A stretch of DNA of 64,000 nucleotides from Phycomyces nitens (Eukaryota > Mucoromycota > Mucoromycetes > Mucorales > Phycomycetaceae), in NCBI GenBank assembly GCA_022702545.1, contig JAHRBC010000002.1, forward strand, positions 4,402,001 through 4,466,000. The letters are read 5' to 3'. Each line of letters begins with the position of its first letter. Position 1 is the first letter of the stretch. The position numbers and the translations under genes are program-made. Below the pieces are notes generated by a model, which was not told the origin of the DNA, made no database searches, and worked only from the letters and a program-made list of their open reading frames with translations. Below, piece after piece: positions 8,593-55,605 of the stretch.

Positions 8593-9103
8593 ATGTGCGC
8601 TCCCATTGCAACTCATCCTTTCCACAATGGCCATCTAGACAAATACTCACTGGCCGCATTCACTGGTACCATCATCTTGATAAAAATTATTTTCACTTTC
8701 TCTTTTAGATTGGCCAAACAACTTATATAGGGATGCCATCGGCACCAGGTAAAATTTTTTCTTTCAATCATACTTGTTCCCTCTCTGACTCTATTCCATT
8801 GTAGACTGCCCTTTCTATTCATGCCATCGGCCTCCTCCATCATTCGCAATTGTAATCATAAAGGTAATATTCTTTATAAATCTCTTTTTGCTTATCCAAA
8901 ATATTATTCAGATTATTTATTAATTATTATTATTATGTGTTTTATAGACTCACTTGGGCTTCCTTTACACACCATACCCCCTACTTTGATAACCCATTTG
9001 GCTCCTGGTATGTAAATTAAATATATCATCACTCTGTTCACCCATATTAATTTTTATTCCCTTTTTTATAGTAAAACCTGCCACACAGCCCATCCAGCCT
9101 TAA
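8593..9103 (+). CDS. ORF3, micro-exon gene of element 1
   Basis: Five tiny exons, 8593-8665, 8709-8748, 8805-8863, 8948-9007 and 9072-9103 (73, 40, 59, 60 and 32 coding nt), are bounded by canonical GT..AG introns of 43-84 nt. Spliced, they give one open frame of 87 codons from ATG 8593 to TAA 9101-9103, crossing phase-1 and phase-2 junctions. A further exon-like block (9218-9264) follows. It aligns with the terminal coding exon of element 2 (14332-14421), so the TAA may be a premature stop. The 74-nt exon at 9072-9145 has exactly the length of its counterpart at 14178-14251. The gene is divergent from ORF2 and in the same orientation as the transposase. No protein family is recognised. The gene call rests on repeated exon structure in five elements and on frame continuity. 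Confidence 0.6.
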
Positions 9104-9844
9104 AATTCAAGTCCCCTTTGCGCACTCTTGCCCATCTCTTGCAATGTAAGTATCTTTTGACACACAAAAATTTTCTCTTTGTACCCCACATCATTAACAC
9201 TTCTTTATCTTTTACAGAACACTCCTGCAGCCCAAAAAATTGCTGGATATTCATATTTTTGCAGGTATTTTTTATGTAGAAAAATATTCCATCCAAATAG
9301 CAGCAAGCAACCGGGTAGAAACGGCTAGGCATAGGAATAGGCGTAATAATAGACCCTAAACCTAGAAACATTCTATTCTTTCCAATAAAAATAAAAGCGT
9401 AAACCATTACCAATCCAATATAAACGGGAAATCAAATAATGGGTGATATATTACTGGTGAAGAAGAATAAAGAGGCTTTCAAGTGTTTGATTTGATTGGT
9501 CTTGGGTAGTAACCACTAGTAGATACATCGAGTTTCTACAACTCGCAACATAAAGATATGTGACGTATCTGAACATTTCAACGACCACGTTGAGACGACC
9601 AAAATAGAACCGTTCTTTTAAATACTTTTTTTCATCGTTCCAAATCAGATCTATATACCGAAAGTGCTAACAGACCTCACCTGCGGCACATTTTTACATG
9701 TTTCTACTACTGCAAACCACGACACCGAGGTACCTGTGAAGCTAGCATGCCTCCTAGTTGAAAAAATATTTAAACTAGGTGAAACCCACCCCTTTTCAGT
9801 ACCATAATGCCGGATTTCTGGTACTACAAACAGCCCCTCTTTTG
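9104..9844 (+). other. 3' part of ORF3 region and right subterminal DNA of element 1
   Basis: Holds the exon-like block 9218-9264 and a conserved stretch around 9380-9420 (ATTCTATTCTTTCCAATAAA), also found at 14470-14500, 41110-41140 (inverted) and 55655-55685. This is probably the ORF3 polyadenylation region. The remaining ~400 bp to the terminus has no gene I can support. Confidence 0.5.
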
Positions 9845-9849
9845 CAGTG

Positions 9850-9852
9850 ACG
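9850..9852. repeat. Target-site duplication of element 1, right (ACG)
   Basis: Second copy of the 3-bp duplication at the other edge of element 1. The interrupted transposase gene of element 2 resumes immediately afterwards. Confidence 0.85.
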
Positions 9853-11779: not shown

Positions 11780-11900
11780 AGCATTAATAAATAAATACTT
11801 GTTTCTTTTAAAAAGAGCAAAACAAAACATTCATTGCCTTTAAACATGTCTTTGGGATTAAATACGTAAGCAAGAGTAAAATAAAACAATTGTTTTTTAT

Positions 11901-13013
11901 TTAATTTCTTACGGCCCAAGGAGGCAGACGGGTGGCCAAGTCACCAGGGACTGCTAAGTCTCTGACTCCTGTGAGTTCTCTTGACAGCATCTGATGAGCA
12001 TTCATCCCCAAGTCAAGAGAAACGAATGAGTCAACGATTTCAATAAACCGGTTGAACTAAATAGCATTTGTTAATATTTCAAAAATATTATCTTAATACA
12101 TATAATTATATATTGTTTACAGAATAATTTACCTCATCACTTCTCCAGCTTGGGTGATAAACAGAGATCCGACGCCTGCCAAGAGTCTTTGAAGTATCGT
12201 TGTCTGATTCTCCTTCAGACATTGCTTCTTTCTGAAGCAGACCAGAGCAGACTTGCCCCATTACCTGCTCAATGGCCTCCTTATGTTCGAGAAAGGCAGC
12301 CATGCGACGTTTTAAATGCTAACAAATATCCAACATGTATTCATTAATATTTGTCTCTAGTTTGAATAGTATACAACCTACATCTTTTTCACGGTTTGCC
12401 CTTCTCGAACGAGCATTGGAGACTGCCTTCTTCTCAGAAGGCTTCGTCTGCTCCTGACGACGGCTACAGAAGTTCCTGTAGACCTTCTCTCGAATGTCGC
12501 TTCTTCTCAAGGGTGAGCCAACAAAATTTGGCCCAAGGTAAGCCAGTAGACGTTCTACCAGCTCCTTGTTGGGACTCTTGTCAAAGTGAGCATGGACATC
12601 CCACCTTGGCTTGTTGTTATTTGCCTGGATGTCAACCAACGCCCTTGACCTCAACTTTGGCTGCCACAAATATCCACGAATATCTCTCTGTTTGATCAAA
12701 ATAAGAATTTAGTTGATAGGATATTATATCTAGTGACACCTACAAATACACGTTTCTTTGCATCAGACATTGATTCATTTGTGGCTTCGGCAGTTGGGGC
12801 AGCAACAGAGGCAAGAGCAGGTACTGGAGCCACAACACTTGTAGCAGCAATGACGGTGAGGTTGGACTCAATAAGAGTCCCCATTCTCCTGTTCATCGTG
12901 GTCATGTTGCCTCTAATTGAGGCAAGATCCTCTTGGAGATTGGTGATGACCGTCTGCATATTGACATCATCGTCAGCAGGTCGTGGAGCAATATTTCTTC
13001 TTTGGTTTGACAT
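11901..13013 (-). CDS. ORF2, element 2 (late frameshift)
   Basis: Four exons: 13013-12744 (270 nt), 12687-12382 (306), 12318-12133 (186) and 12057-11901. The start MSNQRRNIAPRP resembles the element 1 start MVNQRRSIAPRP. The middle exons carry NNKPRWDVHAHFDKSPNKELV, a basic ARSRRANREKD tail, and EAMSEGESDND followed by PSWRSDE. Exon 4 is one base longer than in element 4 (extra T near 12000, GAATTGC against GAATGC). This shifts the frame after LDLGMN and truncates or alters the last ~30 residues. Otherwise open and nearly identical to element 4 ORF2. Convergent with the transposase and divergent from ORF3. Confidence 0.75.
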
Positions 13014-13437
13014 TTTCTATTATAAATTATATAAAAAATACCCAATATTTAATACTCGTTTGCTACTTTAAGTTTAAACATATCTTTTACTTAAAACGCA
13101 CAAGAGACAGATAGATAGAAAAATCGGATTTGAGTGGGAAGAGTGAACAAGTTGGTCAAAAGGATTTAATAATATAAAATACAGAGTATATATTAGTAAA
13201 GACAGCTTTATTTATAAATCCAAAAAGACTTCTTGTACACATTAATGAACGGCACCATTATTGCTTTTGGATTCTATCCATTACACCTATTCTGTCTCTG
13301 TTTCAAATTATATATCCTTGTATTTTTTTTTCTTTTTAGCCTTTTTTCCTTTCTCTTGTTTCCTTATATCCGCGCCTATTTTCTCTTTCTTTTTTTACAC
13401 CTCTTTAGACTAAAAAATTGGCGGCTTCTTTATAAAC

Positions 13438-14421
13438 ACACTCTCATTCCAATACATCCTGCCTGCATTGCTCCTCCAAACTAATCATGGTCAGTTAAAT
13501 GTGCCGGTGCCATCTTGCAAATTATTCTGATTCTCTCTTTCTATTTTATAGACCTCTTCAACTTGTACAGCCTATTATATGATAACGTCATCAGTCCCAG
13601 TGTAAAAAAATATTTTCGTGTCAAATTTTTTTTTCTCTAATGCTTCTTATTCTCCTATAGGCCGCCGCCATCAATCACCCTATACCCCATCTGCGTCTTC
13701 TGTCATCTACAACTGTCATCATAATGGTAATGCTGTCTTTTAGCCTTTATACTTTTTTATATTATTATTCTGACTATCTCTTTTGATCTTATAGACCTCC
13801 TCTACTGGCATGGTTTATTATATGGTATTGTCATTGGTGCTATGGTAAAAAAAATCTTTTTGTGTCAAAAAAATAATAATTTTCTTTTCTAATGTTTCTT
13901 ATTCTACAATAGGCCACCAACATCACTGTCTACCCCATCTGCCTCCCTCATCATCTACGACTGGTTATCATAATGGTAATGCCGTTTCTTGGTCTTTGTG
14001 CTTTTCCATAATATTATTCTGGCTATTTACTAATAATTTTTATACTCTTAATAAGAAGCTATTGTTGGCTGCCATATACCATCCCTCTACTTTAATCGCT
14101 AACTCTGCTTCTGGTATGTAAATTAATTATTTTATCACTCAATTCACCCATATTAATTTATTTTACCCCATCTCTAGTCAATCTAATCATACAAGATGCC
14201 ATGCCGCACAACTCAGCCCCTCTTTGTCCATTCTTGTCCATCCCTTACAATGTAAGTATAATATACCTCGCATCTTGAACAATACCCGCATTCTTGAATA
14301 TATGTCACTAATACTACCTTTATTATATAAGAACACTGCCACAACCACCCAAACTGCCGCCGGACCCTATTTTCAGGTATTGTTCAGTAGTGAAGCACCC
14401 AATCCAAGTAGTATCAAGTAG
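13438..14421 (+). pseudogene. ORF3, micro-exon gene of element 2 (start lost, 3' six exons open)
   Basis: Exons inferred from aligned GT..AG borders: 13438-13489, 13552-13601, 13661-13726, 13795-13844, 13913-13975, 14056-14113, 14178-14251 and 14332-14421. From 13661 to the TAG at 14419-14421 the six exons (66, 50, 63, 58, 74 and 90 nt) read open in one frame across five introns. The block near 13700 (TPSASSVIYNCHHN) resembles MPSASSIIRNCNHK in element 1, in the same phase. The first exon has ACA where element 3 has ATG, and the second exon is out of phase with the rest, so this copy is probably non-functional at its 5' end. The protein ends AGPYFQVLFSSEAPNPSSIK, with AATAAA-like sequence downstream. 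No known family. Confidence 0.55.
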
Positions 14422-14949
14422 GCTGGTAGAAGTGGCAAGGATAGACAGTAATAGTATTAGAGCTTGTGTATAGAACCATTCTATTCTTTCCAATAAACAC
14501 AAATATAAACCATAAACAACCTAATAAGTACAGGATATAAAATAATGGGGGGAGCATTCAATGCTTGATTACACAGTAATAGCCTTCAAATATTGGTTAA
14601 AAATTAAGAAAGCCTTCAATCTACCTGAGTATAATTGGATTTTAATCATGTCAAGAAGTTCCTTTGCTTTCAACTTTCCTCTTATATAAAGAGTATACAA
14701 CAATGAAACTTGGTTTCAAATAGACTTTTATTCTGTACATCAGGTCAAATTAATGACCCGCTCATACTAACAACCCTCACTTGGTCAGCCCATGAAGTAA
14801 ATACTCATGCAGAAACCAGGTCATAACTCATTGTGTAAAACTTGGCTTTGGCCCATACAGAAACCCATACAGCGTATCTAATAAATCTTAATTTTACTCC
14901 TTAGTAACCGCACTTTTACACATGAGTATTCGAACCCATTTTTCCAGTG
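14422..14949 (+). other. Right subterminal region and terminus of element 2
   Basis: About 500 bp of non-coding DNA after ORF3. It ends in the inverted terminus whose minus strand starts CACTGGAAAAATGGG at 14949. The terminal ~31 bp match the end of element 4 at 61579. I see no gene here. Confidence 0.7.
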
Positions 14950-22018: not shown

Positions 22019-25000
22019 AATAATACTTTTATTTTATGCGAAGAGTGTCAATAAGAGGCAAGAGAAAGTAGTATAAAAACCTAAACTTTAAAAAAGATGA
22101 AGGAAAAGACGTAAAGTCTTAACAAGAAGTATAGCCTATGACCAGCTGCCCTAACACTGAGAGGTTGAATGGGCAGAAACAGATATAAAATAAAATAAAT
22201 AAAAAGAGACAAGGGTGTAAAGAAAAGAAGAAATGGTGTAAAAACACAGAAAAGAATTCGGACACTGGGAAAAGTAGATGAGTTAAAGGGAAGAAAGGAA
22301 CAAGTGTGTCCATCGTTGGATTCCATTATGCAGGCTGGGAAGCAGCACGACGACCTTGACGACGGCGCAGACGAGATCCTTGTCCAGAAGAAGTGTCGGA
22401 GTGATGGCCAATCTCATTTTGCGGAGATGAGGAAGGCGGAGCAGAACGACGTGGTCTGTGGGTTGGTGCACAGTGAGAGGTAAAAGTACTGGCAGCAACA
22501 GGAACAGGAGAAGGCAAAGGGGCAGGCGCAGAGGGCGAAGAGGGCACAGGTGTGGCAGGCAGAGGTTGAGTGGAGCCAGTGGGGGAACTGTTTTGGGGCT
22601 GTGACTGCTGACGCGCGTCAATATCTGTGGAAGAATAAACAGGTCCAGCAGGGTACACTCCTCTACAGCGTTGAATCCACAAACGATGACCAAAACGCAG
22701 AATGTCACAGATCAACCAACGATGAAGACGTTCAGCATAACCGCGCTTGCATTTCAACATTAGCAATTGCGAAAAATTCTCCTCATCTGTGCCACCAACA
22801 TCTCCAAAGGCAAACGCACTCATCGTCACAGAAAAACCCAAGGCCTCGTATGCATCTTTGACAGATTTATACTTGTCCAATTTTCGTTGACGGGCACGTG
22901 TCAGGCAGGAAGTTGCATCAGTTGATTGTGATGAGGACTGGGCAGTGATGACAACATCAGTGATGAACACCGTTTTCTTCTCTTCATCTACCACAACAAG
23001 ATCAGGCCGCACACTTTGGCTGGAAAGCAGTGGGGGGCGTTGGTTGACTGAGATTGTGCAAGAACGGTTGTTATAACGTGCAGCAGAGACGATTCGTTGC
23101 AACACCTTGTTGTGCCTTTCTGTTTGGAGTGTCTTGCTTTGGTTATTGCGACAGAAGCAGAGGACGTGGTGGATATCTTCGGGTAGAGAACAAGAGTGAC
23201 AATTGCGTGTCTGACCAAATCCCCATTTCACTTTATTGGCATTGGTAGGAAGCATGTCCAGGCGACTTTTGAGGGCAAATGCATATGCACCAGGGTGGAG
23301 ATCGTCTGTCCTTATCCAAGCGTTGGAGGCAGGGTGCTGGAGGGAGGAAACGGACTGGCCTTGTTTAACCTGGGTCTGCCAACGTGCAAGAAGTTTTGAT
23401 TGACAAAATCGCTTGATGCGTCCTATCATCGTTGTTTTGCGGCGTGGAGTGGTCAGAGCATCTGCAACAATAGTGTCTTCGTCAATGGCAAATTGGACAA
23501 AACTGTCAGGCAAGTGGGAATCGGCCTCAGTGAGCACAAAACGGCAACCAACGTGCTTGATGGCAGCAACAATACCAGCAGAAGGATCAACGGCGTCAAC
23601 GTATCGTCCCTTTTTCAAGTGCTCATACTGTCCAGACATGTATGCCAGTACTTGCTGATCGGTGCATAGCCCCACAGGAAAGTCAACGGTGTCATTGGAG
23701 AGAGGTTTGTTGTACCGTGTTTCTACAAGGGTGGAGATTTCCTCACGTACAAGATGTCTTACTGCTGGATCCGTTGAATTGAGCAAGCCCACAATGTGCA
23801 CGATTTGGGTACTTGCAGACCAATCCGTTGGATCATAGTATCCTAGACCGCCCTGATCAACAGGCAGGTGGAAGAGAGACAAAGAGGCACTGGCTGGGAG
23901 CTGACAGAACTTACGTACGGATTTACGCAGGGTTTGACCAAGCTGCTTGGCATGATGTGGACTGAGACCATTCAATCGAACAAAGTATTCAAGCTGAGGA
24001 AGAATGAATGTCTTGATGGCGTGATGCTTTTGAAAAATGCGCAGTTTTGAGCTGGCAACGGTCTTCAGTTCTTTGTCAATTTGCCCCAAGAGAGCCTTGA
24101 AGCTACCAAATATTCCACGACGTTGCAAGCCAACCGAATTACCCAGATACTTCCAATCGTGATTGAGGTCAATGCAGGGAATAGGTTCATTGTGGTAATC
24201 CAGTTGCATGCGACGATCACGAAGGCGACGATTACGGCTACGATGTCCAGGTTTGGTGGCAGAGAAGCAGGTCTTGTTGGCGTTGATAGTCAACTCGTGT
24301 TCATCCATAAATCCAACGACTTCGGCATGTAGGCGACGGAAATGAGCAGGGTCATGGGAAAAGATTGTCAAATCGTCAGCCAGGAGAAGGTGGTTGTGGT
24401 ATGAAGCTTGAGTGGCAGGTTGAAGGGCGTTGAGGCGATGTGTCAGTTCCAAAAGACAAAGAGTGAAGATCAGAGGGGACGAAGGATCACCCTGTTTGGT
24501 TCCACGCATTAGATTAACCAAGTCAGACGGGCCAGAAGGTGTGTGAACCCAACAAGATATATCATCATACATGCTCATAACCAATCGTACAGAACGACGA
24601 TCAAGGCCAGCATAAACCAACGCAGCACGAATTCTGGTATGAGATACACTCCCAAAGGCATCCTTGAGATCATAGGAGCAAACATACAAGGGGAGATCTT
24701 TACGGCGTGCTTTTCTGATCATGGCATGAATATAGAAGTCGTGCTCAAAGCATCCAGGTGTTGGCATGAATCCCTTTTGGTTTTTGGGAACGATGGATTC
24801 GAGCACATCACGCATGAGACGATCAATGACAGCAGAGTAAAGTTTACCAGCCGAATTTTGGAGAGCAATGGGACGCCAGTTACCAGGATCGTGTGGGTCA
24901 CCCTTCTTATACAACAGAATCGTTCGTGAGAGGCGCCAGTGTTGGGGAATCCAAGCCAAATGTTGACAACGACGGAATATAGCCAGAAGCCAACGGTTGA

Positions 25001-28000
25001 GACAGGGAAAAAGGGACCACACCTTGTACGGGATACCATCGAATCCAGGAGACGACGCCTTGTTGAACTTGCGCAGAATGTTGAGCACAAGATCCTCGTT
25101 GATCGTGGTCAATTGGCGGGTACCATATGCATGTTGCGTGGGAGGAACAGAGGCAGAGACAGAGGGAAGACCATAGCGATCGTCAAAGTGATTGTGCAAA
25201 ACAGAGGGGGCAATTGGGCAAGCTTGACGTTCAACAGGGTTAACCATATTGTCATAGGTGATCTTTGCACGATGTCTGTATTGGTGGAAGACGGTTTCAG
25301 CCTCACGACCTTCACGAAGACGATTACGACGGCGTAGGAGACGACGACGTTCACCACCTGTGAGATTGGGATTGTCATTGAGGGCGTGAGTGATATCGTC
25401 AACACCATCCATAGGGCGAAGCCCACTTCGTTCACTGTCTTGCTTTGGCCGCGTGTACTCAGAGATCAACATGTACAACTCGTCATGGAAGGCGTTGTTC
25501 TTTTGTTCAACCGTTTGACGATTGTCAGAAGGAGTGACCAAATGTTGAGAAACAAGAGAATCTATGGTCAACTCAAACGATTTACGCAAGTCAACGGTCT
25601 CAAACAGAGGAATCCGCAGATATGGACGAGATGTACGTGAAGCCATCATCTGTGCAATGGATGGATATTGGCGGCGGTTGTGTGGAGTCCATGGAGTGGG
25701 AGCAAGGCTGGTTGACACTGAAGAGGTAAGTGGAGTGGGATCAGGTTGGTTAGCATGTCCAGTATATTCCATAGGTGTATCCAAAATAAACTCATCGTTA
25801 TCCAAACGTGGAGCAGTTGGTGTTGCAGAGGTAGCTGGCACGGACAGTGGTGGAGGTGTACAGGGGGTTGGTTGCTGTGGGGCAGAGTTGGTTTGTGAAG
25901 AACGGTGCTGTGAGGTGGAAGGCTGTGGACGGGTGCGTGTGCGTCGTGGAGTGTGTGGTGTAGAGGGTGAAGGAGACGTTGACGATGTGGGTCCAATGGG
26001 TGGGGGGCAGGGTTTTGTCACATTGGGAACAGGCAGAACAGGAGGCGGCGTCAGAGTGGATATGTCAGGCGCAGGGTCCTTATCCTTTCCTTTGTTCTTT
26101 TTGTTACCACGTCTACGTCGGTTTTTAGACTTTTTAAGCACATCCACACAGATCTCCATTGCTTCTACCGCAGCACAATCACTCCCATCGTCATTCGAGG
26201 AAGAATCCAAAGCAGCGTCAATCATGGCAATCGTCATGGGCTGTACAGAAGGAAGACATGGTTGAGCAGTCTTGACTACTCCAGTACGTTGACGACGTGA
26301 TTTTCGCCGTTGAACAACGTTCACGTCCAAAGAAGAGACAACCTGATCAAGTGGGGCCAGAGAAGGACCACCACAGTCTGCAAAGTCTAGCAGAGCACGT
26401 CGACTTGGGTGCATAGACACCTCGTCAAAAGGGAAAGTGACAGTTGGTGAGGGTGGCACAGCCTGGTTCGTGATGAACGCAAGTCTTTGGGGGTGGATGG
26501 TGGGGGTAGGGGTAGGTGAAGGGCGTGGTTCTGGAGGCCGTTGGGAAGTTGGAGGGGCTCTACGTTCTCTAGCAAGAGAATTCTGGCGATCTTGGTCAGC
26601 AAAGAGACGAGCACGGCGAGCAGGGTCCATATTCCAACAGTCATGCCAGTCAACACAAGCAGGAGAGACAGTAGGGGAAGAGAAGCGTGGAGACAATGGT
26701 GTACGAGTTGGGACAGGCAAAACAACAGGAGGTACACTACCAGTGCAAGACAAAACATCAGCAGCAACTTCAACGGCACCAATTGTATCAGCATGATCAG
26801 AATGATCAGCGTCAACAGAGTTTTCGTCCAGAATATCAGCCAGAACATCGCCCTCATGGGCAGAGTAAGCAAGAAGAAGAGGCGAGATCAGAGGAGAAGG
26901 CGTTGGTGATGGTGGGGAAGGTGGTGTTGGGAGCTTGAGGTCGAGTCCACGCAGAAAGTTCGATGCTTGCTCAAAGGTAGAAACAACAATGGGAGCAGCA
27001 GAAGCAGTCTGGGGAGTGTGAGCAACAGAGGCCAGGGTCTTTGCAGGTGGGCGTGTAAAACGATACCCAGTTGGTTGTGGTGAACGATCGTTTAGTGTAC
27101 GTTTGCCCAGCATGAAAATGGTAGAGGGTTGAGGTGGCAAAGCTGGTGATGTGGCAAGTGGAGTGGTGAACCCAGAGCTATCGTTATCATCGTTGTGTGA
27201 ATCGATGTTAGAGTTGGCTGTGGCGTCCAAAACACCAATGGGTGTATCAAATGCATCAAGAGGAGTATCGTCCACATCGCTCTCACAATCGTCACCAGTG
27301 TCCAAGGCAGTACTCAAAGCAGAGAATCGATTTTCGCCAACCAGAGAAGGAAGCAGAGGCAGTGGTGAGGAGCCCGATTTCTGTAAGAACGAACTGATAA
27401 TGTTGGGGTGTTTCCAGATACGTTTCTGACGAAGATGTTGCGTGATTGTAGCAGAATCCCAACCAACAAGTCCAATGATATCGTTCAATGTAGAGAGTTC
27501 TGTCCCAGCAAAAGGGAGGCGCCATGTTCCTGCAAGGGCATCAACGAAACCAGGGTGTGTTTGACGATGGGAAACGAGATCACAAGAAGGGAAGTATTGG
27601 TCACAACCATAGCAAATGCTATTGTCAAGATCAACATCGTCAACGTCAGTTCCAACGGCACAATCGTACTTGACATGGTTGGTGACATCCAGTTTCTCAA
27701 CTGTGGCAAAACCACAACGGCATGGGCAAGTCCAAACGATCCGCAAATATCGTTTGTGCTTGGCAAGATGGTGACGTTGAAGAGAATATGCCTCAGTGTA
27801 TTGGCTTGGGCAACATGGACAGATGAAGGCCTTGGCAGTGCTGATGACAGGAAAATCGTCAATGGGTTGACAGGCAGGTGAATGGCCAGAGAGAGGAGGA
27901 ACACGAACAAGGTGAGGGGCCACATAGGACAGGACACATTCATGGTGAATAAAATCATCACGACTTGTAAACGCCTTTGTACAGTCATAGCATTTCCAAT

Positions 28001-38880: not shown

Positions 38881-39128
38881 TCCCCACCTGGGAATCTCTG
38901 TAGAATATGCATATTGTTTTCTTAATGATGTACTCATTCTGCCAATTACCATTATATTCGAATTAGTTTTAAATCTTATGAGCTGACTTTACAGCAATAT
39001 ATTTTCTATGGTAAGAATATTATAATATGTTTACACTCTTTAATTAATCATATTGCGCATTCTCTATTCTCTTTCTACTGCATCTAGTATTTACATCTAT
39101 ACATTTCATATAGTGGCATTAATTCAAG

Positions 39129-39600
39129 AGATGCTTGGTATACCGATTAACAAGCACAATATATACTGGTATGCTATCCAAAACAATATGCTCGGTTTAT
39201 TTGATCGCTTCATTCTCTGACCACGATATCTTTATAGCAATTGATGAAGACCAAAGGCCTTCCAAGTCATGACAGTGATTCACAACAAGATGCTCGGCAT
39301 GCTGATTAACAAGCACAATATATACTGGTATGCTACCCAAAACAATATATTCGGTTTATTTGATTGCTTCATTCTCTGACCACAATATTTTTATAGCAAT
39401 CGATGAAGACCAAAGGTGCTATCCAAGTCATGACAGTGATCCATAACAAGATGCTTGGCACGCCGATTGACAAGCACAACATATACTGGTATGCTATCCA
39501 AAATAATAAGCTCGGTTTATTTGATTGCTTCATTATCTGACCACAATATTTTTATAGCAATTGGTGAAGACCAAAGGCCATCCAAGTCATAACAACATGT
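39129..39600. repeat. Tandem repeat, ~160-bp unit, three copies
   Basis: Units begin at 39129, 39289 and 39450 with GATGCTTGG-type sequence. Each contains AAGCACAATATATACTGG, CTCGGTTTATTTGAT and a TTTATAGCAAT block. Lies between the coding remnants and the right terminus of element H. No coding potential is evident. Confidence 0.85.
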
Positions 39601-39784: not shown

Positions 39785-40030
39785 GTGCTAGTATATAAAG
39801 TAATATAAAAGAGAGGCTATAGTATATAAAGAAACGATTTTGGTTGGATAAAAAAACGGTAGCTGTGCCTATTCCTGCCTCATAACTACCCTTTTTTTTC
39901 GCACTAAAAAAACGGTAACAGCTACCGAAATCGCCTTATACAGAGTCTTTACTACCGTTTTTTTTGGTGGGAAAAAACGGTAGTAATGCTACCAAAACGG
40001 TAGTTAGCTACCGTTTTTTCCACCGTAGTG
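39785..40030 (-). repeat. CACTA terminal and subterminal region of element H
   Basis: Nearly identical to 957-1202, with CACTACGG at the outer end and several inverted ACGGTAG motifs. The high identity compared with the decayed interior suggests a recent origin or conversion of this end. Confidence 0.75.
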
Positions 40031-40151
40031 TAGACAACTAAGACTTTGAGACCGAATTTTCAGGTATACCAAACAGTATCTCAAGATAGATAATGATATA
40101 GCAATCAAAAAATGTGTACGCGTAATAGAAAAAGATATCTATATTTTTCTG

Positions 40152-40385
40152 TTAGAAAAGCAATAGGAATGACTGATTACTTACCAAGACAAACTGGTTT
40201 GTTGGATATTCCATGTCTTTGTTAAAACGCGGCAATTTTCTTTGATAAAAAGGCTGATAGTAAAGACAGAATATATTAGTATTAATAGTGATAAAATATT
40301 CGAACATACCAAGTACATTCCGTCCATTCGACTTCATCATTGTCATCTTTGGCCATTGCGATTGAAAGGAGTTGTTTTGAATCTA
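40152..40385 (-). pseudogene. Small exon remnants resembling a transposase C-terminus
   Basis: On the minus strand, 40355-40310 reads DDNDEVEWTECT and ends at a GTATGT donor. After ~70 nt, 40245-40190 reads PFYQRKLPRFNKDMEYPTNQ then FVL and a GTAAGT donor. The NQFVL-type ending resembles C-terminal regions of plant-type CACTA Tnp2 proteins. It lies outside element H and probably belongs to an older element. Confidence 0.3.
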
Positions 40386-40659
40386 CAAGATGAAGATTAC
40401 TGATTAGCAACAGCAATAAAAAATAGTGCGCCCATTTACATTTTTCTTGTGCAAGCTTGAATAAAAGTGACTATAAGACACCTTTTAGATAATTGAAAAG
40501 ATGTTAAAGATTATCTTTAATTGCATGAAAAATTTTCAAGTACTTATCAGAGAGTATAAAGGAAGCAAAAAGTAAAAAGAGAGAGAAAAAGGGAAAATTG
40601 GGAAAAAAGAATCCATATGCATTTTTAGATTATAGTAAGCCCTAATAAATTATGAGAAC
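40386..40659. other. Spacer before element 5, no gene seen
   Basis: AT-rich DNA with an A/G-rich run near 40560-40610. Nothing recognisable apart from the CACTGGGAAAACGG terminus that begins at 40660. Confidence 0.4.
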
Positions 40660-41183
40660 CACTGGGAAAACGGTAAAAGTAGATCATGTGTAAAACTGTA
40701 AATAAATATGTGAAAAGTCGCGAATTTTCTATGGTAAAACACAGATATGACAGATAGGAGAACCTAGGTTCCTATCAGGTTGTAAGACTCGAAATAAACA
40801 TGGTAAAAGTTGTGACAGCGAATGGAACAAAGGTTTGTTAGCATTTTTGACATGCTTAACTGACTTGATATACTCAATTGTTACATCCGACATTATGTTT
40901 TTGGTGTACAGGTATTGTGTTTACATCTTGAAAGGGCGATCTTATTGTTGTTTTTCATACACTAATAGTGAGGGTTTATTATTGTTTACCCATTCAAACT
41001 GCCAGTATTGACCACTCTTTGAAACTCATTATTGTATAATCAAGCAATAATTACTCTTTCCATCATTTTATACCCCGTACTTAAAAGGTTTATGGTTTAT
41101 ATTTGTGTTTATTGGAAAGAATAGAATGGTTCTATACACAAGCTCTAATACTATTACTGTCTATCCTTGCCGCTTCTACCAGC

Positions 41184-41916
41184 CTATTTGATATTACTTG
41201 GATCGGATACTTCTCTACTGAACAATACCTGAAAATAGGGTCCGGCAGCAATTTGGGTGGTTGCAGTAGTATTCTGATATAATAAAAGTTATATTAGTGA
41301 CATATATTCAAAAGTGCGGGTGCTATTCAAGATGCAAGGGATATTATACTTACATTGCAAGGATTGGATAAGAATGGGCAAAGAGGGGCAGAGTTGTGCG
41401 GCATGGCATCTTGTATGATTAGATTGACTAGAGATGGGATAAAATAAATTAATATGGGTGAATTGAGTGATAGAAAAATCGATTTACATACCAAAAACAG
41501 AGTTGGCGATTATAGTAGAGGGATGGTATATGGCGGCCAACAATAACTTTTTAAGAATATAGAAAAGTATTAGTAAATAGCCAGAATAATATTAGGGAAA
41601 AGCACAAAGACCAAGAAACGGCATTACCATTATGATAACCAGTTGTAGATGATGAAGGAGGCAGATGGGGTAGACAGTGATGGCGGCGGCCTATTGTAGA
41701 ATAACAAACGTTGAGAAAAAAGAAATTGGACACGAAAAGATTTTATTTACCCTGGCACTGATGATGGCACCATATAATAGGCTGTACAAGTGGAAGAGGT
41801 CTACAGGATAGAAAGAGACAATCAGAATAACTTGCAAGATGGCACCGGCACATGTAACTGACCATGATTAGTCTAGATGGGCAATGTAGAGAGAATGTAT
41901 TGGGATGAGTATACAT
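41184..41916 (-). pseudogene. ORF3, micro-exon gene of element 5 (3' exons open)
   Basis: On the minus strand, GT..AG-bounded exons align one-to-one with those of element 2: a first exon ending at 41863, a 50-nt exon, a 63-nt exon, then 55-, 74- and 90-nt-type exons. From the 50-nt exon to TAG 41186-41184 the frame is open across four introns, in the same phases as element 2. It ends with the same GPYFQVLFS peptide. The first exon has an in-frame TAG relative to this frame, so the start is unclear. Downstream is the conserved AATAAACACAAATATAAACC region. Confidence 0.5.
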
Positions 41917-42261: not shown

Positions 42262-45200
42262 ATGGCACCAAGATCCACTCCCACTTCTCGCTCAACCGAT
42301 GAGCAACTCCAATTGTTGGAGACCTTGCGGGATATTCAAAACATCCTTGTCAGGGTAGATTCTCGCATTGGCACCAGCATCGAAGGCAACGCCAGTACTG
42401 TTGAGGCTATTGACAGTTTGGCTGAGTTGGTGGCTGCCAACAACAGTGCAGTTCCTGCCGCCGAGCTTGCTTCTGCCTTTGGTGAGGAGCTATTCACCAT
42501 TGTTGGCCCTGCTCCTGGTCCTGTTGCCATCCCTGCCACTGGCCCAGCTCCCATCATCCCGGCTGTGGTGGAGTATAACCCTGGTGCCGCCACAGAAGCG
42601 TTTGTAAGTATTAATATTCTCAATAGCTTACCAATTCATTGGCTTATAAAAATTTAATAGCGACATATACGAGACTATCTGTGGAGGCCCAATTTCAGGT
42701 CAAACAACCCGGCTATGGTGCAAGCCAACAACAACAGGCCCAGGTGGAGAACGGAGGTTCATTTCAATGAATCTCCCAACAAGGAGTTGGTTCTTGAACT
42801 CCTTGCCTACCTGGGCCCAACGTTCATCAACACTGGCTTGCGCCAAAGGGATCTTCGGGACAGTGTCTACTGGAACTTTTGCGGAAGGCGTCACCAGGAG
42901 AGGGCGTCTCCTGAGGCACGGGTAGCCGCAAATGCTCGTGCCAGAAAAGCCGGCCGGGAAGCTGATGTATGTAATAGTATAGCATCTAAAAGACTTGAGA
43001 TTGAAAAACAATATTAAACATATGTTTGATTAGCATTTCCATCGCCGTCGAATGACATACCTCTCCAACAAGGATGCCATTGACAATGTGATAGGCAATG
43101 ATTGCTCAGCACTCATCCAAAAGGCATCAATGTCTGAGGGTGAGTCTGAGGATGAGTTTCCTGGAGTTCCTGGCCGGCGGATGATCCGCACAGTACGCCC
43201 AGGCTGGAGGAGCGATGAGGTAACATATTAGAGACATTTGGGGATTCATACTTTTTAAAATTCTTATTTTGGTAGGATAAAATATGATCTTGACAAATAT
43301 TAGTAATCCTTTTTAGTAAAATATTTAGCCAATGATATTTGAGAATAAAATAACTGCGATTTAAACAATATTATCTGAGAGTATAATTTACTTTGTTTCT
43401 TTTGCTTTCTATTACTTTCTCTTTCACTTTTCACACTTCTTTTATATATAAAAATATTCGGATATACAAGCAACTTACGCAATACCATCTACCAACTTAA
43501 TGCAGAACGTCTTGATAACTACTCTGCCGAGACTGACATCCCTCATAGCGAGTTCCAAGATGCTGTAGAAGATTATGCACTACTTAACGAGCGAAATATT
43601 TACCAACGTGCAGAGATCCAAGCTTTGGGTGATGCTTCATGTATTGAATTCTTTCGATTCACCTACTCTCAGATGGAGTACATTGTCAATGCCATGGGAC
43701 TGCCATCAACTGTCATATTACGCCAAGATACGACCCACCAATTCTCTTGGGATATACTGTCAGCATTGGCAATCACTCTTCGACGATTGTCATATCCTGG
43801 GCGGTATGCTGACCTTGAGCACTTCTTCAAGGTTAATCGCAGTACTTTATATACGGTTTTCAACACGATGGTTGATCTTCTGCATGACAAGTATGCCAGG
43901 GGACTACACTTTACCAAGGATCACTTGCATCCATTCAACTTGAGGCGCTTCAGCAATGCCATTGCTGAAAAAGGGTCGCCATACACTGGCATTATTGGGT
44001 TCATTGATGGAACCCTAAATTCCGTATGCAGACCAGGGGAAGACCAGGAGATCAACTATAATGGTCATAAGAGGGAACATGGTTTGAAGTTCCAGTCCAT
44101 TGTGACTCCAGATGGAATCACGGTGAGCATGTCTGGGCCGTTTGCTGGATCAATGCACGATCAGAGAATGCTTGAGACCAGTGGAATCATGGCTCAACTG
44201 GAACAGCAACTCTGTCATGCTGATAATGGTGATCACCATTATGCCATCTATGGTGATCCAGCATACAGAGCAAATGTATTGGTGGTCAAGCCATTCAGAA
44301 GAAGACCTGACATGACTTCTGAGGAGCGCCTCATCAATAATGCCATGTCAAAAGTTCGAGAGTGTGTTGAGTGGGAGTTTGGACATGTTGGTGCTTTCTT
44401 TGCTTATGTCAAGTTTAGAAATGGACAGCGTGTTGGGCAGAGCCGGGTAGGAAAGTTCTACCTCATTTCTACATTAATGAAGAACATTCATACTTGCATT
44501 AACAATGGAAATCAGACAAGCATGTTCTTTGATATTGCACCTCCCCAATTGCATATATACCTAGACAGAATCACCACACAATAAAATTGATTTATAAATG
44601 TTTTTTTTTTAAAAACGTTTACTACTGTGGATGGTAGAAAAAGGGATAAGATGTCCCAGAAGGTTGCTGGTAGGCAGAGGGATAGGGACTTCTGCTACTA
44701 TTTTCTAGCTTTCCCAATCGTTCATTGACCACACAAAGCTCTTGCTTGGTCTCGCAAAGCTCTTGCTTGACCTCACGAAGCTCTTGCTTGACCTCACGAA
44801 GCTCTTGCTTCATCTCAAGCATCACCTTCATCATTTCGTCGGCCAGCTTGTGCTGACGAGCTCTCTCCCTCTCATCTGCTTCCATTGCCAATGCAATGTC
44901 TTTCTCAAGAGATTCCCTGGGACTAAGCCTTTGATACATTGGAACTCTCTTAGTAGGAATCTCTTGAGAAGTGGAAGTACTGCCACTTGCATTGGATTGC
45001 TCACTATCCATCCATGCCTGTTGTGGTGATTGTGTGGGGACTCTAATAAGAGTCTCCTTCTTCTTCTTGATTGTCCCTTGCAATGCTCTGACACTCATCA
45101 TTACTTCCGCATCTCTCTTCCTAGCAATGCTCTGTGCTGCATCTTCATCATCCTTACTCTTCTTCAACTCTACAGCTGTCATCTAATATTCATAAGCAAA

Positions 45201-46098
45201 TAAAATTTCAAATAAGCATATATAAGACTGTATATTAAAAAAGCATACTAATTGATCCAAGGAAAGAACTCAGTTTTCCAGAGTAGTTTCTGAATCATTG
45301 GTACCAGTATCCCCTCTTTCTTTTCTATGCTTCTCTTTGATTTGTTTTCTGGAGTCCCGAACAAAGTTTCTGATTGTAGATATACCAACTGGGTGGGTGC
45401 TGGGATCACTCTTGTTGACTTCGTCTTGAACCATATCCCATGCCTTGATGATATTGCCTTGTAATTGCTCAAAAGGACGGTATTCAAGCATAGCTTCAAT
45501 GCAAGCTAGCTTTCTTACATCATTGAGCTTTCCACGTTTTGCAGATGGCTCTAAACTTCCTTCAACAAATTGCAAGTTGTTGGGGTTGTTGTCAACTGAT
45601 TTTCCAGACATTTGAGTAAATATGAAAAGATATATAAGTGTAAGAGTGAATAGAACAAGATAGAATAATATGAATGCCCTTTATAAATTTCAAATTTGTA
45701 TTATATTTGGCGATATAAAAGCATGCTTATAATGTGGTTGATTGGTTTATTTTAAAAGCAAGTTAGTAAAAACGTTTTTAATATTATTAATAAAAACAGG
45801 CCGAATTTTTAATAATCCTGTGTAACATTTGTTTAAAAATTACTTTTATGGCTATTAAAAAGAATCCCCAAATGTCTCTATTATTTAAATAAATTTTTTT
45901 ATTGCTTTTGAATCATAAAATAATATTCTAATGAATGTATACTAGTTCAATCAGTTGATTGAGTTGTTGGACTCGTACTTGCTCCTTGGCTTGGGTGTCA
46001 ACGTGCGCCAAATGCTCCCAAGAGTATTTGGCCGCGTTGCGGATTTAGCAGTCCCTGAGGGGCTTTCTTCCTCTCTTCCTCAATGGTCACTGAGATAA
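42262..46098 (+). CDS. ORF2, element 5 (intact, Harbinger inside intron 3)
   Basis: Exons 42262-42603 (342 nt), 42661-42966 (306), 43034-43219 (186) and 45946-46098 (153) total 329 codons including stop, open and all phase 0. The first exon starts MAPRSTPTSRSTDEQLQLLE with a short coiled-coil-like part and an Ala/Pro-rich tail. The second has NNRPRWRTEVHFNESPNKELV and a basic ARARKAGREAD end. The third has SMSEGESEDE and RPGWRSDE. The last is FNQLIELLDSYLLLGLGVN... ending PQWSLR. Intron 3 is ~2.7 kb because a complete Harbinger element sits in it; the other copies have introns of ~60-75 bp. If the intron is still spliced, the protein is unaffected. Function unknown. Confidence 0.78.
43226..43230. 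repeat. Flanking direct repeat TATTA of the Harbinger element, left
   Basis: TATTA directly before the terminal repeat, matched at 45879-45883. Confidence 0.8.
43495..44584 (+). CDS. PIF/Harbinger DDE transposase
   Basis: The frame is open from about 43495 to TAA 44582-44584. There is no in-frame ATG upstream of the conserved region, so an upstream exon or later start is likely and the 5' end is uncertain. The DDE_Tnp_4-type catalytic core is visible: first Asp in IIGFIDGTLN, second Asp in FAGSMHDQRML, Glu in VRECVEWEFG. A preceding helix-turn-helix-like stretch reads LRRLSYPGRYADLEHFF..NRSTLY. It would cut and paste the element together with the Myb-like partner on the opposite strand, whose stop lies 37 bp away. 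No stops or frameshifts in the core. Confidence 0.88.
44622..45611 (-). pseudogene. Harbinger Myb/SANT-like partner protein (one in-frame TGA)
   Basis: Exon 1 (45611 to about 45250) starts MSGKSVDNNPNNLQF and has a Myb/trihelix-like domain (CIEAMLEYRPFEQLQGNIIK..WDMVQDEVN) followed by RNFVRDSRKQIKEKHRKE. Exon 2 (45182-44622) starts MTAVELKKSKDDEDAAQSIA and has a strong Lys/Glu/Gln coiled coil with repeated ELREVKQ heptads. A TGA at 45272-45270 lies just before the GTATGC donor. The homologue at 63577 continues through this point, so the TGA is probably a mutation. In this superfamily the Myb-like protein binds terminal repeats and helps import the transposase into the nucleus. Confidence 0.8.
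45879..45883. repeat. Flanking direct repeat TATTA of the Harbinger element, right
   Basis: TATTA directly after the right terminal repeat. Removing the element and one copy rejoins intron 3 of ORF2. Confidence 0.8.
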
Positions 46099-46219: not shown

Positions 46220-46236
46220 AAAAGTTTTATTTGTAT

Positions 46237-51800: not shown

Positions 51801-51932
51801 TCTCCAGCCAACTACCACAGTATTGTGCCTGTACATCGCATTCTGTTAGAAGTAACACTGGCTGAACATATGACCCAAAATAATGTAAAGAAGATACTGG
51901 TTATCCCTTTACTTAAAAAAATATATGCTTAA
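48801..51932 (+). pseudogene. Tnp2-like transposase, element 3 (nearly intact)
   Basis: Exons: 48801-48948 (148 nt, same length as in elements 1 and 4, using a GC donor), 49002-49043, 49122-49331 (210 nt, acidic, with an Asp-Ala repeat near residues 35-45 and VEELDGEG) and 49395-51932. The long exon is open for about 840 codons with all family motifs, from VVDKGAVVLIEFVN to LVIPLLKKIYA. It has two bases fewer than elements 1, 2 and 4 between the acceptor and MPENPVHRF. Spliced as in its relatives, it would therefore be out of frame at the start of exon 4. Translation from the internal ATG at 49413 could still make the core. A Ser-Tyr-Ala-Pro minisatellite (15-bp unit) lies at 51190-51270. Confidence 0.85.
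51190..51270. repeat. 15-bp coding minisatellite in the element 3 transposase
   Basis: Repeated TCCTATGCCCCATCC-like units encode alternating Ser-Tyr-Ala-Pro and Ser-His-Ala-Ser. Element 1 has a Thr-Pro repeat at the same place, so this linker tolerates repeat expansion. Confidence 0.85.
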
Positions 51933-52075
51933 GTTTTAATAAAATATGTCTTTACTCATTTTTAAACAAGATTGCATACCAGAATAAAATAAACAAGTAT
52001 AGGATTTGAATGAGTCTTTAGGATTGAGTGCATGAGAGGAGCAAAGATGAGGTTTTTTTATTTTTTTTAAATTTT

Positions 52076-53286
52076 TTAATTTCTAATGGCCCATTCAGGC
52101 GGGGGAGGGACCATTCCCTCCGGGACTGCTACTTCGTCAACGCGGCCAAACTTTCGACGAAGCATCTGACGATGTCTTGTTCCCAAGCCGGCAAGCACGT
52201 AGTCATCGACGAGTTCAAGGAAATGATTGAACTAAAATATTCATTAGTATTCTATAAAAATAATAAACAATATTCTTTGCGAATTTATTTACCTCGTTGC
52301 TTCGCCAGCTTGGGCGCGCAGTGAGGATGCGACGCCCGAACGAAGCATCGCTCCCCTCATCGTCAGACTCACCCTCAGACATTGCTGCCTTTTGGATGAG
52401 ATTGCTGCAGTCCCGGTCCATTTCTTGGTCAATCGCCGCCTTGTTATTGGAGTATGCCTCCCGGCGGCGAGTGAGATGCTGATGAAATATATGATTGTCA
52501 ATTGAGTTAATAGGAATCCTTTTCATAATAAAAATAATAACTCACGTCCGCCTGACGGCCATTTCTTCTTGAGCGAGCATTCGCTTCTGCTCGCTTCTCA
52601 AAAGACTTCTTCTCCTGAGTCCGCCTTCCATTGAAGTTGGTGTATATATACCGGCGGAGGTCAGGGTACCTCAACCCAGACTCGAGAAACCTTGGCTGGA
52701 GATAGGCCATTATCTCGAGTACCAACTCTTTGTTGGGACTCTCGTTAAAGGCCACGTCCGTTCTCCAGCTAGGCTTTCGGTTGTTAGCCTCAACCAAGTC
52801 TGGGTTGTTGGACCTGAAGTTTTGGGTCTTCAGGTAGCGTCTGATGAAGCCCTAATATATTTTTAGAAGGTATTAGACTAGCAATATATTTCAATAGTAT
52901 ATACTCACATACGCGCGGTTGGTTTCCTGCATTTGAGGAGCTTCAAACGCAGCAAGTGCAACCACAGTGGGGGAGAGAGGAGCAGCAGCAACGGGAGCAG
53001 CAACAATGAGGGCAGCAACAATGGGGGCAGCAGCAACGGAAGCAGCAGCAACGGGGGCAGAAGAAGTTGCCCCAGGGACATTTCCAAAACCATCCAAGAT
53101 GGCAATGGTACTGGCACCATCTTGGATGATAACACCAAGCCTGGTGTCCATAGTGGCTAGCCTGGTGCCAACAGAACGCACCTCTCCAGTCACATTGGAC
53201 AAACCAGCCTCCACACTGGTCAATCTGTCCATCAATTCCCTGAACTCGTCGGTTGTTCGAGGAGCAATTGCACGTCTGTTTGCCAT
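52076..53286 (-). CDS. ORF2, element 3 (intact)
   Basis: Exons 53286-52909 (378 nt), 52851-52546 (306), 52478-52293 (186) and 52231-52076 (156) give 341 residues with all introns in phase 0 and no stop. It starts MANRRAIAPRTTDEFRELMD, with a heptad-rich N-terminus and an Ala/Val/Pro-rich low-complexity segment. The second exon carries NNRKPSWRTDVAFNESPNKELV and a basic EANARSRRNGRQAD end. The third has AAMSEGESDDEGSD followed by RPSWRSNE. The stop lies 144 bp from the transposase stop (convergent), and the start is about 420 bp from ORF3 (divergent). The invariant middle exon lengths across five elements argue for selection on this protein. Confidence 0.82.
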
Positions 53287-53702
53287 AATCTACAAAATAT
53301 CAAATAATAATTTTCAATTGTTAATTGTCTTTATTTCATGGGATCTCATATAAAATATGTAATGTCTTATACATACAATTGATATTTGTTTTATTGAAAG
53401 GTTTTGGGAAGCAGAAGGGTGTGTTGTGTGTGAACAGGCCTTTGAGAATATAAAATACAGAGTATTTATAAAAAAAGAGTTTGATGAGCGGATCCAAACA
53501 CTTCTTGTACACACTAATGAATGGCTCCATTTGTTTTTAGATTCTATCCATTACACCTATTCTGTCTCTGTTTCAAATTATATATCCTTGTATTCTTTTC
53601 TTTTTGCTCTTTTTTCCTTTCCCTCGTTTCCTATATCCGGGCCCATTTTTTCTTTCTTTTTTACACCTCTTTACACTAAAAATCGGCGGCTTCTTTATAA
53701 AC

Positions 53703-55605
53703 ATGCGCTCATTCCAATACATCCTGCCTGCATTGCTCATCCAAACAATCTGTGGTCAGTTGAATGTGCCTTTAGCATCTCGCAAATTATCCTGACTCTC
53801 TTTTTTTTATTTTATAGACCTCCTCAACTCACACAGCTTTATTATATGGTTCAATCATCAATATTGGGCTAAAAAATCTTTTTGTGTCAAACGATTTTCT
53901 ATTCTAACGTTGCTTATTTTATTGTAGACCACACCACCAATCACCCCATCTACCTCTTCCTTCATGTACGATTGTAATCATAATGGTAATATCTTTTTTT
54001 GGTCTTTATATTTTTTATAATATTATTCTGATCCTCTCTTTTTATCTTATAGCCTTCCGCCACTCACACAGTCTATTATATTGGTATCGTCATCAGTGTC
54101 ATGGTAAAAAAGAACCTTTTGGTGTCAAACTTTTTTCTCTAACGTTGTTTATTCTACTTGGGTCACCCCCATCACACCCTGTCCGTCTCTTCCATCATCT
54201 ACAACTGGTTATCATAATGGTAATGCCATTTCTTGGTCTATACTTTTCTATAATATTATTGTTATTCTCTCTTTTTATTTTATAGACATATTCCGTTCAC
54301 ACGCCTATTATATGGTATGGTCATCAGTGGCATGGTAAAAAATCGTGTCAAATAATTTTCCCCTTTAACGTTTCTTATTCTACTATAGACCGCCACCATC
54401 AATCACCCCATCTGGCTTCCCCATCATCCTCAACTGTTATCATAACGGTAATGCTGTCTCTTAGTCTTTCTACTTTCCATAACACTATTCTGATTCTCTC
54501 TTTTTATATTATAGATCTCCTCTACTCAAACGGTCTATTATATGGTATCGTCATTGATGGCTTGGTAAAAAATATTTTCGTGTCAAACTATTTTATCCTC
54601 TAACATTTCTTATTCTACTATAGACCGCCACCATCAATCACCCCATCTGGCTTCCCCATCATCCTCAACTGTTATCATAACGGTAATGCTGTCTCTTAGT
54701 CTTTCTACTTTCCATAACACTATTCTGATTCTCTCTTTTTATATTATAGATCTCCTCTACTCAAACGGTCTATTATATGGTATCGTCATTGATGGCTTGG
54801 TAAAAAATATTTTTGTGTCAAACTATTTTATCCTCTAATGTTTCTTATTCTACTATAGACCGCCGCCATCAATCACCCCATCTGGCTTCCCCATCATCCT
54901 CAACTGTTATCATAACGGTAATGCTGTCTCTTAGTCTTTATACTTTCCATAACACTATTCTGATTCTCTCTTTTTATCTTATAGACCTCCTCTACTCAAA
55001 CGGTCTATTATATGGTATTGTCATTGGTGGCTTGGTAAAAACTCTTCGTGTCAAACTATTTTCTCCTTTAACGTTTCTTATTCTACTATAGACCGCCACC
55101 ATCACTGTCCACCCCATCTGGCCCCTTCATCATCTACGACTGGTTATCATAATGGTAATGCCTTTTCTTGGTCTTTATCTCTTTCCATAATATTATTCTG
55201 GCTATTTACTAATATTGTTCTATACTCTTAATAAGAATCTATTGTTGGTCATCACGTAACATCCCTCTACTTAATTGTCAACTCTGTTTCTGGTATGTAA
55301 ATCGATTATTCTATTACCCAATTCACCCATACTAATTTACTTTACCCCATCTCTAGTCAATCTAATCATACAAGATGCCATGCCATGCCGCACAACTCAG
55401 CCCCACTTTGTCCGTTCTTATCCATCCCTTACAATGTAAGTATAAAATACCTCGCATCTTGAACAACACCCGCACTCTTGAATATATGTCACTAATATAA
55501 CTTTTATTGTATTAGAATACTGCCGCAACCACCCAAATCGCTGTCGGTCCCTATTTTCAGGTATTGTTCAGTAGTGAAGCACCCGATCCAAGTAGTATCA
55601 AGTAG
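53703..55605 (+). pseudogene. ORF3, micro-exon gene of element 3, with amplified exon pairs
   Basis: Exon 1 (53703-53754) starts ATG and encodes a hydrophobic, signal-like MRSFQYILPALLIQTIC, in phase with the next exon as in element 1. Alternating ~50-nt and ~59-66-nt exons follow, each framed by GTAA.. and ..TATAG. The terminal exons match elements 2 and 5 up to TAG 55603-55605. Damage is visible. The donor after the second exon (near 53868) is lost, one acceptor near 54163 reads CTTGGG, and the 74-nt exon has a 5-bp ATGCC duplication near 55385. The third-last exon has an in-frame TAA. This copy therefore looks degenerate as a single coding gene. No known protein family. Confidence 0.45.
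53928..55155 (+). repeat. Tandem array of ~235-bp exon-pair units in ORF3 of element 3
   Basis: The longer exon of each unit starts at 53928, about 54163, 54389, 54624, 54859 and 55092, giving a period of 226-235 bp. Units at 54389, 54624 and 54859 are almost identical. Each unit holds one ~59-nt exon, an intron, one 50-nt exon and a second intron, with splice signals kept. Elements 1 and 5 have one such pair and element 2 has two. Confidence 0.88.

Follow-up and report, generated by a model that had tools for sequence, protein, structure and literature searches.

CACTA/EnSpm (CMC) transposons carry a tnp2-type transposase (PF02992), terminate in CACTG..CAGTG, are flanked by a 3-bp duplication and have a second gene beside the transposase, and elements alike in these respects are found in the 64,000-nucleotide (nt) stretch of the Phycomyces nitens genome analysed here (the window; GCA_022702545.1, contig JAHRBC010000002.1, positions 4,402,001 to 4,466,000, forward strand; G000:C4:4402001-4466000). 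Those in the window also incorporate a third, many-intron cassette, which is divergent from the second gene and common to several families. In the open-access literature, where such elements are little covered for this fungal group, no description was found of a third CACTA gene of this kind, nor of CACTA elements in Mucorales. The rows of very short exons and the internal exon duplication are reminiscent of the micro-exon genes (MEGs) of schistosomes, the exons of which are mostly multiples of three and encode a secreted protein. Unlike those of the MEGs, the internal blocks of the cassette (40-79 nt) drift out of frame, their lengths being mostly not multiples of three. Fungal CACTA-type elements with an accessory gene beyond the transposase have been reported among the EnSpm and Plavaka elements of other fungi that carry TET/JBP genes, and the accessory gene is reported to move between transposon lineages (PMC12730594). 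There the accessory gene is described as a recognised dioxygenase (PMC12730594), while the cassette in the window has no recognised domain and its frame is not kept. A functional microexon, likewise a short exon in a filamentous fungus, is described for Xlr2 of Trichoderma virens (PMC11121469), but there one regulated microexon belongs to the gene of a host transcription factor and not to a transposon cassette.

Judged by its splice signals and 3' ends, the cassette, named ORF3 (open reading frame 3), is well supported at the sequence level as a stretch with many introns that resembles a transcription unit and recurs in several CACTA families, and, introns included, it is the most similar part between three of them, a feature newly observed here. 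An earlier note on this DNA, made from the letters alone, had proposed a third, micro-exon gene with conserved phases. The many-intron stretch stands, but a phase-conserved protein gene does not, the cassette failing the tests that ORF2 passes. Most of the micro-exons keep no reading frame, and the cassette is thus probably not an ordinary protein gene. That ORF3 genuinely is a cassette resembling a transcription unit with many introns, located in the right arm of CACTA/EnSpm-type elements and working by the mechanism set out below, is considered somewhat more probable than improbable. The confidence attached to the several readings overlaps and is not meant to sum to one.

Splice signals, 3' ends and copy number

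The elements in the window share a layout of ORF1 (transposase), ORF2 on the opposite strand and then the cassette. The GT..AG-bordered exon-like blocks of the earlier note could be located on the strand opposite to ORF2, although its five arrays represent two types rather than five independent cases. The cassette at 8593 constitutes type T1, while those at 13439, 41184, 53703 and 56131 form one T2-like family, the last being a fragment cut off after the fourth exon. In four of the five copies the blocks of 40-79 nt line up as an exon-like chain that has signals for donor, branch point and acceptor and closes with a poly(A)-like sequence. In a scan that chained intron-like units (donor, branch point, pyrimidine tract and AG acceptor) with 35-95 nt between introns, set against 400 dinucleotide shuffles per copy, chains of four (8593), seven (13439) and ten (53703) intron units were found, each of which was reached by 0/400 shuffles. 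The chain of two units in the 41184 copy was not clearly above the shuffles (p 0.065), and the same scan found no chain on the antisense strand of the four tested copies. Splice signals thus exceed chance, on one strand, in three of four copies. A comparison of T1 with T2 further shows donor hexamers and acceptor triplets kept at 29/36 positions, against 392/667 elsewhere (p 0.006).

The genome searched for cassette and transposase copies, of which the window is part, comprises 49 Mb in 11 contigs. The poly(A)-like word CATTCTATTCTTTCCAATAAA with A or C as the next base, which ends both T1 and T2 cassettes, is present at 261 places and its reversed pattern at none; a somewhat shortened word with G or T as the next base is present once. 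An internal exon/donor word has 190 genome occurrences (control 0). Cassette copy numbers are lower bounds, since only 40 of 343 T1 candidates and 40 of 427 T2 candidates were scored; the 40 scored T1 copies are 98-100% identical. The 3' end also exists without the whole cassette, with L069 matching over the last 200 nt only. At L069:1-1301, the T2 3' end (from about 1080) abuts the end of an unrelated sequence, like two adjoining insertions. The attribution of the cassette to all CACTA-like elements was too wide, given that no match was obtained in families L065 and L066 (blastn, E 1e-3). By eye, small exon-like blocks with a CTG/GTAAG-type first donor follow ORF2 at L065:4600-5250 and L066:2450-3050.

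Exon organisation of the two cassette types

The T1 cassette (plus strand) consists of exon 1 (8593-8665; 73 nt), which begins with ATG, exon 2 (8709-8748; 40 nt), exon 3 (8805-8863; 59 nt), exon 4 (8948-9007; 60 nt), exon 5 (9072-9145; 74 nt) and a terminal exon (9218-9389) running to the poly(A)-like signal at 9369-9389. The first five splice to an 87-codon ORF, as had been reported, which is closed by a stop in exon 5. The T2 cassette of element 2 (13439-14497, plus strand), the first exon of which lacks an ATG in this copy, comprises exons 1-4 at 13439-13489, 13552-13601, 13661-13726 and 13795-13844 (51, 50, 66 and 50 nt) and exons 5-8 at 13913-13975, 14056-14113, 14178-14251 and 14332-14497 (63, 58, 74 and 166 nt). 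Its open frame of 138 codons, measured from stop to stop, is near the 401 nt previously given. The third element includes a T2-like cassette with fewer exons (41108-41916, minus strand; poly(A)-like signal at 41108-41128), and a truncated T2-like cassette with the first four exons only lies at 56131-56645 on the minus strand.

The T2-like cassette of the 49-56 kb element (53703-55681, plus strand) is made up of 16 exon-like blocks of, in order, 52, 50, 58, 51, 58, 49, 59, 50, 59, 50, 59, 50, 63, 57, 79 and 166 nt, including tandem exon pairs. Its first 50-nt block has GC in place of a GT donor. The 235-nt repeat unit of this cassette corresponds to an exon of 50 nt, an intron of 59 nt, an exon of 59 nt and an intron of 67 nt, and the tandem units at 54343-55047, each exon-intron-exon-intron, are 93-97% identical to the reference unit. 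Genomic relatives of the array vary in the number of units. By eye, the first exon of the 53703 copy resembles a signal peptide.

Block lengths drift between and within arrays (49/50/51, 58/59/60/63/66, 57/58 and 74/79/89 nt), with shifts of 1, 4 and 5 nt among them. A length-invariant 74-nt exon, as previously claimed, is contradicted by this drift: absent from the 56131 fragment, it measures 74 nt in the 8593, 13439 and 41184 copies, but has been enlarged through insertions in a 5-nt repeat to 79 nt in the 53703 family and to 89 nt in L071. The notion of shared phases likewise fails, with blocks of 49, 50, 51, 58, 59, 60, 63 and 66 nt occurring between and within arrays.

Similarity of the cassette between element families

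When the three T2-like elements are compared, the cassette with its introns is 83-89% identical and represents their most similar part. Identity is lower elsewhere, at 73-78% for an ORF1 block, 57-64% for two exons of ORF2, 56-72% for the interval separating ORF2 from the cassette and 51-55% for the interval that runs from the poly(A)-like signal up to the right end. The copies at 13439 and 53703 share 79-96% identity in their exons and 84-90% in their introns. Between T1 and T2, the internal exons are 54-63% identical and the terminal part 66%, while the introns show 53, 66, 80 and 53% identity. A similar pattern is evident for P0121, a predicted partial protein of 102 residues from Mucor saturninus, which aligns ungapped with the spliced T1 peptide over 87/87 residues, 81 of them identical (93%). 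P0121 is placed beside the transposase P0004 by the consecutive tags INT47_005589 and 005590, yet the T1 transposase shares no more than 71% and 63% identity with P0004 over the two parts compared. In a sister-family copy, the transposase of which is 87% identical to P0004, 361 nt of the cassette are about 97% identical to T1, with exons and introns equally similar in this one copy. The amino acid identity of P0121 was for this reason rejected as proof of selection, the introns of the sister-family copy matching T1 like its exons over the 361 nt.

The higher similarity of the cassette than of the rest of the element between three families suggests exchange. The similarity across families could be explained by repeated right-arm exchange or by constraint acting on the stretch as a whole, of which exchange is favoured.

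These identities also bear on the explanation that the cassette is a purely non-coding spliced RNA, or a right-arm DNA or RNA element (serving, for instance, as a decoy or structural spacer, or to control silencing through splicing), with accidental ORFs. We regard this as possible but rather unlikely. It finds support in the best-conserved DNA between three families being the cassette including its introns, in intron 6 being the best-kept stretch between T1 and T2 (80%) and in stop triplets occurring at shuffle frequency (see below), but recent exchange accounts equally well for the similarity. One open frame is, moreover, common to the last two exons in nearly all modelled T2-like copies, and a search of Rfam at gathering score returned no RNA family in the window other than one transfer RNA (tRNA).

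Reading frame conservation in the cassette and in ORF2

ORF2 serves as a yardstick for coding sequence. In element 1 it occupies 6966-8154 on the minus strand, divergent from ORF3, in four exons (351, 306, 186 and 162 nt) which are open over 335 codons including the stop. The open ORF2 copies of element 2 (11901-13013, minus strand; exons of 270, 306, 186 and 156 nt) and of the 49-56 kb element (52076-53286, minus strand; 378, 306, 186 and 156 nt) were used as positive controls. Between families the 306- and 186-nt exons are constant, the first and last exons vary by multiples of three and no internal stop is present, with 41-45% amino acid identity. The T1-T2 differences fall on codon positions 1/2/3 at 127/110/186, an excess at the third position. 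Length changes in multiples of three, with the frame kept between families, are thus observed for ORF2 but not for the cassette.

Stop triplets in the cassette are not depleted relative to shuffles (8 vs 5.8, 8 vs 8.7 and 12 vs 13.7), and selection for openness in all three frames was rejected on this basis. Measured against composition, the longest ORF with an ATG has p = 0.076 (8593), 0.073 (13439) and 0.58 (53703), and the frame from stop to stop p = 0.29, 0.018 and 0.29, respectively. The 138-codon frame of the 13439 copy (p 0.018) is therefore the only one of six ORF-length values with p < 0.05. The open frames otherwise lie within or close to what composition gives. An open frame was consequently rejected as proof of coding, composition mostly accounting for it with the 138-codon frame as the exception. 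In the T1 type, a stop precedes the shared last part in 20/20 loci looked at, and likewise in the one sister-family copy read, while a version without this stop occurs at 33 genome places (26-nt pattern). Only a weak coding signal persists, mainly in the last two exons.

Cassette blocks are joined in three gene models of M. saturninus, in which many of the junctions are the same. P0121 represents the T1 type, whereas the T2-like cassettes are represented by P0122 and P0123, predicted proteins of 152 and 170 aa. P0121 spans all T1 junctions and then continues in the same frame as the last exons of T2. P0122 joins paralogous exons in three frames, RRHQSPHLAPPSSSTVIIT, PPPSITPSGFPIILNCYHN and TAAITVHPIWPLHHLRLVIIM being derived from one exon type; it lacks the peptides of the two exons preceding the last and terminates in the last exon. 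Other frames are used in P0123, which terminates through the last two exons. This use of frames indicates that the models back the splice signals and not a conserved protein. The M. saturninus genome is reported to have been annotated using MAKER with AUGUSTUS and GeneMark and with expressed sequence tag (EST) and protein hints (PMC7928374), to which P0121-P0123 are tied by species name only.

It is doubtful that the micro-exons make up a functional third protein gene whose product, a small and rapidly evolving accessory protein, acts for instance in regulation or anti-silencing, the frame-shifted T2-like copies being dead or coding for lineage-specific proteins. The open 87-codon ORF of T1, its 93% match to P0121 across all T1 junctions and on into the T2 last-exon frame, the 33 places with the T1-stop-free version, the two further predicted proteins and the positive frame-wise z in four exon classes (see below) are all in keeping with such a gene. 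However, the predictors described for the M. saturninus genome work ab initio with EST and protein hints (PMC7928374), paralogous exons are translated in three different frames in P0122, and the ORF lengths of the T1 and 53703 cassettes are not beyond composition. Furthermore, the T1 stop lies ahead of the shared last part in all loci looked at, exons are conserved no better than introns, and neither a Pfam match for three cassette peptides nor a PDB match for P0121 was found. That the cassette is not a gene at all, but a set of tandem subterminal repeats (transposase-binding sites) with accidental splice-like words, is highly improbable, for although subterminal repeats are often present in CACTA elements and the right arm does contain the 235-nt units in head-to-tail order, the donor, branch point and acceptor are ordered on one strand only, far above shuffles, T1 has a splice chain without tandem units and both types have the poly(A)-like end.

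The shared 46-codon ORF and a model for the cassette

A 46-codon ORF, the commonest form of which is MPHNSAPLCPFLSIPYN/NTTATTQIAVGPYFQVLFSREAPDPSSIK, is common to the last two exons of the T2-like cassettes. In element 2 its first part (MPHNSAPLCPFL...SSIK; 14201-14251, plus strand) resumes past the junction at 14332. Among 46 rows examined, three of which gave no model, 42 of the 43 modelled keep the frame open as far as the same stop, corresponding to 38/39 distinct loci because four rows are second reads (W2 = L009, L003 = L062, L004 = L063 and L007 = L064). In a stricter extraction that requires the ATG, from 44 rows, L013, L064, L068 and L072 gave no match and L012 has no ATG; the other 39 rows (37 distinct loci) comprise 22 different sequences, and 38/39 rows (36/37 loci) are open. 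Third positions take 18/38 changes in this ORF (p 0.05). Length changes that are not multiples of three fall upstream of it in T2-like copies, and the out-of-frame insertions of the 74-nt exon precede its ATG, an arrangement consistent with a leader that comes before a short coding segment.

The reading preferred here, of a many-intron, transcription-unit-like cassette, can be set out as follows. A promoter region shared with the divergent ORF2, situated between ORF2 and the cassette, probably drives the latter. Five to about 15 short introns would be removed from the transcript, which may end by polyadenylation at the conserved AATAAA-type signal. The upstream micro-exons would be retained as exons, by virtue of their splice signals, and not as codons. 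The tandem duplication of exon pairs together with free length drift suggests that the T2-like micro-exons behave like a spliced leader, and translation in T2-like families would concern at most the 46-codon ORF of the last two exons. In T1, and in the P0004 family by its gene model, the micro-exons still form one open frame, which is compatible with an older accessory-protein gene that is decaying, and the cassette may pass between otherwise diverged families. The more specific proposal of a third CACTA module conserved for splicing and not for coding, expandable by tandem exon pairs, with frames differing by copy, exchanged after transposase divergence and ending, in T2-like families, in a near-constant short C-terminal peptide, is offered tentatively and has the lesser part of our confidence. 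If transcribed and spliced, the cassette would represent a third CACTA module preserved with its introns by selection or exchange, and the more than 200 cassette 3' ends in one genome would provide many natural copies for asking what splicing does for a transposon. Caution is warranted in annotation, as gene finders can produce unrelated 'proteins', read in differing frames, from such cassettes.

A number of observations weigh against the preferred reading. In a column-permutation test, the P0121 frame outscores the other two in four exon classes, with z = 1.05 (50-nt exon), 1.39 (59-nt exon, p 0.08), 2.74 (74-nt exon) and 1.28 (last exon). It is not the best in the E6 exon (z -0.39) or the 63-nt exon (0.01). 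Comparison with T1 alone gives smaller values, namely 1.92 for the 74-nt exon, 0.18 for the last exon and -0.58 for the 50-nt exon, and one intron frame attains 1.88. Variant sites fall on codon positions 1/2/3 at 25/21/29 and 12/14/22 in two T2-like lineages. The splice-site excess is weaker for T2 against L073 (p 0.056), the 53703 copy (0.048) and the 41184 copy (0.14), and when only GT/AG are considered the T1-T2 value is 12/16 (p 0.16), partly because one acceptor is shifted. Exchange and whole-stretch DNA constraint are not separated by these data. There are exceptions in the last two exons as well: the last exon of T1 is 2 nt longer and out of frame, L012 lacks the ATG of the 46-codon ORF and L073 stops early. 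Selection between copies, which had been suggested for testing, gave no clear synonymous excess in the upstream exons and, in the 46-codon ORF of the last two, 17/38 synonymous changes against 31% expected (p 0.057), while the density of variation in this ORF (0.27) equals or approximates that of the neighbouring introns (0.27 and 0.26). Constraint on the 46-codon ORF is thus at best weak.

Transposable elements in the window

The window elements are of the CACTA/EnSpm type, on the basis of Transposase_21, the CACTG..CAGTG ends and the 3-bp duplication, the ends being read for element 1. This T1 element (3484-9849, plus strand) begins with CACTGG at 3484 and ends with GCAGTG at 9849, as expected for the CAC termini of CACTA/EnSpm, and is flanked by the target duplication ACG at 3481-3483 and 9850-9852, a single insertion read at both ends. 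It is nested within the transposase gene of element 2 (3481-9852 including the duplication), and its flanks on both sides resemble the transposase of the 56-61 kb element. The right-end search word was matched in 18/20 T1 loci, and in 18/18 of these GCAGTG is followed by differing bases. ORF1 of element 1 (4336-6838, plus strand) encodes a tnp2-type transposase (Transposase_21), spread across three overlapping ORFs in this copy. The tnp2-type domain PF02992 was detected in three of the four transposase-like ORFs in the window (2.7e-21, 3e-19 and 8.3e-23), the fourth being a partial ORF, and 150 transposase matches were scored among 785 candidates genome-wide. Predicted M. saturninus proteins match the transposases of the window (P0001, 98.9%), L066 (P0005, 99.3%) and L065 (P0057, 99.7%), these identities being upper values for the best aligned stretch only, and they point to that species or a near relative as the source of the DNA. 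The motifs C(2)C and H(3-4)H are named as a criterion for CACTA/EnSpm transposases (PMC12730594).

Several further sequences accompany the CACTA elements. In the third CACTA element, ORF2 is interrupted at 43278-45900 (approximate ends) by an element whose transposase (43625-44584) is of the DDE_Tnp_4 type. By eye, a fragment at 40035-40660 on the minus strand resembles the right part of the L065 CACTA family (829-aa transposase), and its cassette region differs from both T1 and T2. A large ORF with reverse transcriptase lies at 22326-28154, and a retrotransposon ORF with protease, reverse transcriptase, RNase H and integrase domains at 30768-34520, while the tRNA match (RF00005; 28587-28658, minus strand) adjoins retroelement sequences. 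Near-alike short sequences resembling miniature inverted-repeat transposable elements, with repeated ..GGTAGC..ACCGTTTTTT.. words, were seen by eye at 961-1200 and 39797-40030, and a 156-nt unit is present in three tandem copies at 39102-39577 (79 and 90% identity to the reference copy).

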